From Cyanobacteria bacterium REEB459 (GTDB taxonomy: Bacteria > Cyanobacteriota > Cyanobacteriia > Phormidesmidales > Phormidesmidaceae): a stretch of 64,000 nucleotides of DNA. This document shows positions 39,717 through 41,509 of the stretch, piece by piece; positions within the stretch are counted from its first letter, which is position 1, and every line of letters starts with the position of its first letter. Where the stretch lies: NCBI GenBank assembly GCA_018970085.1, contig JAGWXD010000015.1, positions 1-64,000 of the forward strand. The letters run 5' to 3'. Both the position numbers and the translations under genes were made by a program. A model generated the notes under the pieces. It did no database searches. It was given only the letters and a program-made list of their open reading frames with translations, and was not told the DNA's origin.

Positions 39717-39826
39717 AATTACTTGGCCAACCTCAGGTTAGGGGTATAGGATGCTGATAGCTGTCGGCCCAGTTAGCCCGGGAACCAGGGGCGACTAACT
39801 GTGTCGCACTGGAGTGAGTAAGCGCC

Positions 39827-41509
39827 ATCGAAACCATCTACGGCAACTTAAAGGGGCTTAAGCCCAGCCAGCTAAAGCAGCTACAACGGCTTTACCATTT
39901 ACGATTGCCGGCAAACTGCGTGGTCACCCCCGAGTTGGCTCAGCGGGTGGCGGCCATCAGTACCGATATTAATAGCCCCCTTTGTGTATTTATGAATCGA
40001 CGAGGGCAGATAGTTCGGGTTGGGGTGGGTAGTCTCAGGCAAACCCAAATTCCCCTGGTGGAATTACCCCGCTACGGCGACGATCGCCTCTGTGGACTAC
40101 GCTGTCTTGTCACCCAGACCGAGGCGGAGCCCCCCTCCCAGGCGATTCTGACTACCATGGCGTTGCAGCGATTAGACCTGCTGGGGGTCATGGTGCTGAC
40201 AGGGGCTGGCTCTCGGGGGCGAGGCGGTCGGGTCAGCGGCTATATTGAACATACCTACCTGGCCCACCTGGTGCCCCAGGCAGAGTCACCCTGGAGGGTG
40301 GCGGCAATGGCTTTAGATCAGCTCTGTAGTCAGGATTTTTTAGCCCTGGTGGAGGGCCTAGAGGCAGAGTTTCGGCGGGCTTTTACGGCCCGCCAGGTCG
40401 ACCAGCACAGCGATCTCGTGGTGATTGTAGGGCTGCTTACCCAAAATCTAACATCGGATCATTTTCTGCACCGCTTTGAGGAATTGGCCCGGTTGGTGGA
40501 AAGCGCAGGCGGTCAGGTCTTAGAAACTATTTATCAGCGGCGACCCCGTCCCCACCCCCAAACGGTCTTGGGTACAGGCAAAGTCCAGGAAGTAGCCCTG
40601 GTGGCCCAGACGGCTGGCGCTAATCTGGTGGTCTTTGATCGGGATTTATCTCCAGTCCAGGTACGTAACCTGGAAAACCTGATGGGGTTGCGGGTGGTAG
40701 ACCGTACGGAACTAATTCTAGATATTTTTGCCCAACGGGCAAGAACCGGAGCGGGCAAACTTCAGGTAGAACTAGCCCAACTAGAATATCAAATGCCCCG
40801 CCTCACCGGACGAGGACGGGCGATGTCGCGACTAGGCGGGGGAATTGGCACCAGGGGTCCTGGCGAAACCAAACTGGAGACCGAGCGCCGCACGATTCAG
40901 CGCCGCATTAATAGGCTACAGCAGGAGGTTAATCAACTGCAGGCCCATCGATCGCGCCTGCGTCATCAGCGTCAGTCGGACAACCTGCCCTCCATCGCTA
41001 TCGTCGGCTACACTAACGCTGGCAAATCTAGCCTGGTTAATGCCCTCACCAACGCCCAGGTCTACGCCGCCGATCAACTGTTTGCCACCCTCGATCCCAC
41101 CACCCGGCGATTAACCATTCCCGATCCGGTCACCCAGCGGCCGATTTCCCTGGTGCTCACCGATACGGTTGGTTTTATTGAGGAGTTACCGGCTTCCCTG
41201 ATGGATGCCTTTCGCGCCACCCTGGAGGAGGTGACCGAGGCAGACGCCCTCATTCAGGTGGTGGATATTTCCCATCCAGCCTGGCCCGATCAGATTAACT
41301 GGGTGATGGAGATTCTGAAGTCCATGCCCGTTACCCCAGGTCCGATGTTACTGGTATTCAACAAAAGTGACCGGGTTGATGCCGCCGCCCTGGCCGTAGT
41401 TCAGAGTCGCTATCCCCAGGCTGTGTTTATCTCGGCAACGGAACGCTGGGGACTAGAGGTGCTGCGCGATCGCCTGCTACAACTGATTGCCTATGCCGGA
41501 GCCGGATAG
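39827..41509 (+). CDS. hflX: GTPase HflX, start codon unclear (apparent AUC)
   Basis: HflX is a ribosome-associated GTPase that splits stalled or stressed ribosomes. The protein has an HflX N domain (TIYQRRPRPHPQTVLGTGKVQEV), then LTGRGRAMSRLGGGIGTRGPGETKLETERR, and a G domain (GYTNAGKSSLVNAL, TDTVGF, NKSD). Homologues begin METIYGNLKGLK. Here, in the same frame, the sequence reads IETIYGNLKGLKPSQLKQLQ, with ATC (39827-39829) where ATG is expected. No ATG, GTG or TTG precedes the TTG at 39905. Either AUC initiates, or a truncated protein starts at TTG 39905 (534 residues). The coordinates here include the conserved N terminus. Confidence 0.8.
   Translation: METIYGNLKGLKPSQLKQLQRLYHLRLPANCVVTPELAQRVAAISTDINSPLCVFMNRRGQIVRVGVGSLRQTQIPLVELPRYGDDRLCGLRCLVTQTEAEPPSQAILTTMALQRLDLLGVMVLTGAGSRGRGGRVSGYIEHTYLAHLVPQAESPWRVAAMALDQLCSQDFLALVEGLEAEFRRAFTARQVDQHSDLVVIVGLLTQNLTSDHFLHRFEELARLVESAGGQVLETIYQRRPRPHPQTVLGTGKVQEVALVAQTAGANLVVFDRDLSPVQVRNLENLMGLRVVDRTELILDIFAQRARTGAGKLQVELAQLEYQMPRLTGRGRAMSRLGGGIGTRGPGETKLETERRTIQRRINRLQQEVNQLQAHRSRLRHQRQSDNLPSIAIVGYTNAGKSSLVNALTNAQVYAADQLFATLDPTTRRLTIPDPVTQRPISLVLTDTVGFIEELPASLMDAFRATLEEVTEADALIQVVDISHPAWPDQINWVMEILKSMPVTPGPMLLVFNKSDRVDAAALAVVQSRYPQAVFISATERWGLEVLRDRLLQLIAYAGAG

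Follow-up and report, generated by a model that had tools for sequence, protein, structure and literature searches.

The window, by which we mean the whole 64,000-nucleotide stretch analyzed here, carries an hflX gene with no canonical start codon at the head of its conserved reading frame, which raises the question of where its translation begins and what an irregular start would mean for the cell. The gene is identified as hflX by a profile match to TIGR03156 (464.6 bits; cut-off 216.75) spanning the G domain and the HflX domain, and it is the only full-length copy in the window's genome. On the forward strand, the hflX frame reads TGA GTA AGC GCC ATC GAA ACC ATC TAC GGC. An earlier note on this DNA had described an in-frame TGA just upstream, an ATC in place of ATG, and no ATG, GTG, or TTG before a TTG at 39905, and each of these observations held. 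The TGA at 39815–39817 bounds the reading frame upstream, the ATC lies at 39827–39829, and the hflX frame contains no ATG, GTG, or TTG between that TGA and the TTG at 39905–39907, which is the first canonical in-frame start and lies 26 codons downstream of the ATC. The other nearby start codons, GTG 39801 and GTG 39814, are all out of frame. Translation from ATC 39827 gives IETIYGNLKGLKPSQLKQLQRLYHLR, and the coding sequence from this ATC to the stop (39827–41509) specifies an HflX GTPase of 560 residues whose N-terminal domain is long. The note had left open initiation at AUC, the loss of about 26 residues, or a sequencing error. We assign a probability of roughly 0.85 to the reading that AUC is a genuine but weak start, probably controlled by IF3 in the manner of the AUU start of infC; the start itself is drawn from sequence comparison and the IF3 step from analogy.

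An ATH codon at the hflX start position across cyanobacteria

We compared approximately 280 homologous loci with a usable leader, taken from the phylum and the class, and collapsed them at 85% nucleotide identity over the first 45 codons to a non-redundant set of 150 hflX representatives. The codon at the start position was ATC in 104, ATA in 23, ATT in 5, and something else in 18, such that 132 of 150 carry ATH (ATC, ATA, or ATT). The codon is conserved across relatives, being present in 34 of the 39 coded families sampled. Within the window's own family, every fetched orthologue has ATC except one, which has an ATC one codon earlier. Where the earlier note had suggested looking for relatives with ATG at this codon, the opposite emerged: orthologues bear ATC or ATA at the same codon, in support of initiation at AUC, and only a separate paralogue, hflX2, has ATG.

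Beyond its conservation, the site does not behave as an isoleucine codon, given that ATT is rare there despite being the commonest isoleucine codon in the same genes (ATT 57%, ATC 38%, ATA 5.5%). The contrast between 5 of 132 start positions and 57% of isoleucine codons corresponds to a binomial p of ~1e-39, a value from which the relatedness of the loci has not been removed. At least 11 interchanges between ATC and ATA were counted on the tree; although ATC to ATT is the easier mutation, the interchanges seen are between ATC and ATA.

A sequencing or assembly error that replaced ATG at 39827–39829, or an indel in 39814–39827, has nothing to recommend it but the oddity itself. The same codon or AUA recurs in independent isolates and complete genomes, including Nodosilinea nodulosa PCC 7104, Calothrix sp. 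PCC 7716, Moorena bouillonii PNG, and Fischerella thermalis PCC 7521. This excludes the error that the earlier note had allowed for, and we give it practically no weight. The presence of AUC or AUA at the hflX start in almost all cyanobacteria examined thus indicates a real, long-conserved feature.

The non-photosynthetic sister class contributed five loci that reach the N-terminus, of which three have ATH and two ATG. In two of the ATH loci (L110, ATC; L111, ATT), the ATH codon follows a TATAAT-like box and an AGGAGG, in that order, and is the only start available; the third has ATT, with in-frame GTG and ATG codons a short way before it. Separately, one contig labeled as a Tatlockia (Legionellaceae) metagenome-assembled genome (L192) encodes a cyanobacterial hflX with an AUA start and a cyanobacterial-type leader and was probably mis-binned.

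The ATH codon as the probable start of the protein

Protein-level constraint distinguishes the two sides of the ATH codon. In between-species comparison, codons 2–24 differ at positions 1/2/3 with frequencies of 0.25/0.11/0.61, the mark of purifying selection, whereas the triplets upstream of ATH are flat at 0.72/0.73/0.68, with no purifying selection. In 87 of 132 loci, the stretch from the upstream stop to the ATH codon holds no canonical start in frame, and in 28 loci that stop lies only 2–4 codons away. The -10-like boxes of the relatives' leaders cluster at -55 to -33 relative to ATH, implying leaders of about 20–45 nucleotides with little room for a distant start. In the paralogue hflX2, an ATG stands exactly at the ATH position (L078–L081 and L117). 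This second hflX, which starts with ATG and is 57–60% identical, occurs in several genomes, both within the window's family and outside it (L078–L081, L117, and L288).

The ATH-less representatives are instructive as well. A canonical NTG occurs at codons -3 to -1 in 13 of these 18 loci versus 23 of the 132 with ATH (Fisher p 4.6e-6). The other five comprise two with ATC or ATT one codon upstream (L025, L057), one with ATC two codons upstream (L283), one with CTG one codon upstream (L101), and one with GTG one codon downstream (L279). For L101, from a single genome of family f6, that CTG is apparently the sole near-start codon of hflX. Some lineages have a GTG or ATG two codons upstream of ATH, and translation may start there in those cases.

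Initiation at TTG 39905 or another downstream canonical codon, with the first 26 residues (39827–39904) lost, is what a gene finder restricted to ATG, GTG, and TTG would choose, as this TTG is the first canonical in-frame start. The earlier note had already recognized the region upstream of that TTG as the conserved N terminus of cyanobacterial HflX, and residues 2–24 are indeed conserved in relatives, with synonymous drift. The first downstream NTG in relatives falls anywhere from codon 4 to codon 111, so no alternative start is conserved. An AlphaFold2 model of the 560-residue HflX (mean pLDDT 80) places a strand at residues 4–6 and a helix at 13–23, with pLDDT of 91–93 over residues 11–40; starting at the TTG would strip a domain predicted with confidence of its strand 1 and helix 1. 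Given this conservation and predicted fold, loss of the N-terminal residues is very improbable. Solved HflX chains align from residue 172 onward, and the N-terminal ~170 residues (39827–40340) are unmatched at the sequence level by any solved HflX structure.

A further alternative would have ribosomes start at a canonical codon out of frame and then shift frame, or use a different near-cognate codon, for example ACG at -2. GTG 39814 does open a 15-codon out-of-frame reading frame across the window's ATC, and G is a frequent last base of codon -2 (ACG 19, GTG 11, AAG 10, GCG 10, and ATG 7 of 132). However, 58 of 132 loci have out-of-frame starts whose reading frames run across the site; these are evenly divided between frames (35/35) and never conserved, while in some loci codon -2 is a stop (TAA 3, TGA 1, TAG 1) or AAG, a poor start. 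Because the invariant element is the ATH codon, we regard this alternative as improbable, if slightly less so than the downstream TTG. AUC as the start codon of hflX is therefore well supported by the comparison of homologous sequences.

Sequence context and leader structure

Among the 132 ATH loci, U precedes the codon at -1 in 79%, and CCU occupies -3 to -1 in 43%. By comparison, CCT precedes 3.5% of 113 unambiguous starts taken as background from 400 kb of a Nostocales genome, which marks the CCU context as specific to hflX. Weak starts reportedly benefit when a U at -1 contacts A37 of the initiator tRNA, with which it can pair. The window departs from this consensus, with GCC at 39824–39826 and C at -1, where relatives mostly have CCU. 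A four-base Shine-Dalgarno core at -20 to -4 was found in 60 of 132 ATH loci, against 26 in shuffled sequences. In the window, GGAG at 39811–39814 is the only Shine-Dalgarno-like element and lies rather distant from the ATC, at a spacing of 12 nucleotides. A strong extended Shine-Dalgarno of the S. aureus kind is confined to the sister-class loci L110 and L111.

In a clade of Nostocales, Oculatellaceae, and relatives, a hairpin of 5–8 bp ends approximately 10 nucleotides before the start. The end falls at -11 in 18 representatives and at -10 in 7, where about one per position is expected. In an alignment of 30 loci, each of the six pairs varies on both sides, giving 10 cells versus 3.4 when shuffled, a value reached in 0 of 500 shuffles, and sliding the hairpin partner destroys the signal. 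Possession of a stem was one reason for choosing these 30 loci, which biases the paired percentage. The covariation across these leaders supports the hairpin as real in this one large clade. Its stems are varied (GACCAG/CTGGTC, GATCAA/TTGATC, GACTC/GAGTC, GGATCGG/CCGATCC), unlike what would be expected of a protein-binding operator.

Other leader features were sought with less result. A GCGAC/GTCGC hairpin can be drawn in the window's leader, but its fold is no better than that of shuffled sequences (z 0.01), and it was rejected. Pairing of CCU (-3 to -1) with an upstream AGG or Shine-Dalgarno element was likewise set aside, since it was not convincingly more frequent than after triplets had been permuted among loci. 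Alifold on ungapped alignments gave no conserved structure extending into the coding region, the window's leader and those of six relatives matched no Rfam 15 family, no promoter or terminator reached the scan's threshold in the window's hflX leader, and no conserved uORF was seen in cyanobacterial hflX leaders. One locus of family f47 (L247) has a perfect inverted repeat of 16 bp, TACTCAGTATAATTGT/ACAATTATACTGAGTA, that overlaps its hflX leader just before the ATC.

Probable weak initiation and its possible control by IF3

In the reading we favor, hflX would be translated from AUC, or in some lineages from AUA and rarely AUU, in the window's genome, which its relatives place in the genus Nodosilinea, and in nearly all cyanobacteria. 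The normal initiator tRNA, with its CAU anticodon, would read the codon, and the protein would begin fMet-ETIYGNL. An anticodon-arm pattern search of 35 genomes found CAU in all true copies of the initiator tRNA, implying a mismatch at the third position whenever AUC or AUA is read. If a dedicated initiator tRNA instead had a different anticodon (GAU or UAU) and read AUC and AUA efficiently, the tolerance of both codons would be explained. Set against this, CAU was present in all hits but one across the 35 genomes, four of which had no exact-pattern match, and we consider such a tRNA highly improbable, more so than the downstream TTG. The exceptional hit, with a TAT anticodon in genome G033, is not a tRNA according to ARAGORN.

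With the normal CAU initiator, weak initiation would follow from a third base that cannot pair properly with the anticodon and would keep HflX at a low level. The start codon is thus a hint that the cell deliberately limits or controls how fast HflX is produced. The preferred U at -1 may aid the weak codon by pairing with A37, and the hairpin ~10 nucleotides upstream in one large clade would occupy the usual place of the Shine-Dalgarno sequence.

HflX splits ribosomes, and IF3 keeps the 30S subunit apart; a link between the two would therefore be sensible. IF3 discriminates against AUU, AUC, and AUA (PMC4611024), and in S. aureus, where infC starts with AUA, conserved AUU and AUA starts give ~10% of AUG output (PMC13009471). 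Together, these properties lead us to think that the start codon makes HflX scarce and its synthesis dependent on the supply of IF3 and subunits. By analogy with infC, pcnB, and the staphylococcal AUU and AUA starts, IF3 would set the HflX level by rejecting such starts, and HflX synthesis would rise whenever free IF3 became scarce compared with 30S subunits.

A serious rival, to which we give somewhat less than an even chance, accepts AUC as the start but holds that it merely ensures constant low expression, with no regulation by IF3 or ribosome state, as has been proposed for pcnB. The regulatory step draws on analogy, two of three S. aureus AUU/AUA reporters showed little or no change with medium (PMC13009471), and the pcnB AUU, at least as cited in PMC1780047, is described as simply limiting expression. 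However, a precise CCU context, against a background of 3.5%, and a hairpin at fixed distance exceed what mere low expression would need. Control of the weak AUC start by IF3 remains the reading we prefer. More tentatively, and with the balance of likelihood against it, AUC/AUA, CCU, and the hairpin of one clade ~10 nucleotides upstream might jointly form a dedicated hflX control element that senses the balance of IF3 and ribosomal subunits, having arisen before cyanobacteria and their sister class split and been kept since.

Comparison with known systems

Gvozdjak and Samanta have reportedly described genes that prefer non-AUG starts. In the literature searched, with subscription papers and arXiv outside its scope, we found no report of an AUC or AUA start for cyanobacterial hflX. 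Conserved AUH starts are already known for infC, pcnB, cvfC1, and ccpN and suggested for lepA, and hflX appears, from that literature, to be an addition to them. On the sequences compared, it would stand out for unusual breadth and for a preference for AUC and AUA over AUU. A start that is normally a rare exception would be standard, throughout a phylum, for one translation-factor gene. Gene finders that accept only ATG, GTG, and TTG would misplace the HflX N-terminus in most cyanobacteria, and a ribosome-splitting factor would be linked to start-codon fidelity. Lineages that switched to ATG or GTG offer natural controls, making the old question of why some genes retain poor start codons directly testable.

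In E. coli, pcnB (AUU) resembles hflX in having a weak AUH start thought to keep its protein scarce. To our knowledge, the pcnB AUU is not phylum-wide, and we know of no CCU context or hairpin associated with it. The cvfC1 (AUU) and ccpN (AUA) genes of S. aureus likewise have conserved AUH starts found by comparison, and also by footprinting, with reduced output (PMC13009471). They rely on an extended Shine-Dalgarno (PMC13009471), whereas even the four-base core is present in less than half of the hflX loci (60/132). For lepA of Borrelia burgdorferi and Bacillus licheniformis, an AUU start has been proposed; lepA is also a translation-related GTPase, and its full length there requires that AUU (PMC1780047). 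The lepA AUU occurs in isolated species, however, while the AUH of hflX is conserved phylum-wide. A translation-linked leader element of hflX itself is known from Bacillales, where the uORFC-6-1 motif is an upstream ORF with structure inside (PMC8632094); in cyanobacterial hflX, by contrast, the odd element is the start codon.

A further parallel is infC (AUU in E. coli, AUA in S. aureus), likewise a translation-factor gene with a conserved AUH start, no canonical alternative, and discrimination by IF3. As with infC and pcnB, the AUH start position of hflX in the window has no canonical in-frame alternative. In the sampled cyanobacteria, infC itself seems to use GTG or ATG rather than AUU. It often has GTG in the context ACGCCTGTG (L289, L292, L311, L313, and others), with the same four pre-start bases as hflX. 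Four genomes (G000, G047, G054, G014), one from the wider family and the rest from the genus to which the window belongs, are without the high-scoring infC (~240 bits) found in other cyanobacteria and have only divergent IF3 copies at ~150 bits; many other cyanobacteria have both. Two differences separate the systems: hflX prefers AUC and AUA and avoids AUU, and whereas infC is autoregulated, control of hflX would be indirect, through IF3 acting on the start codon of another gene.
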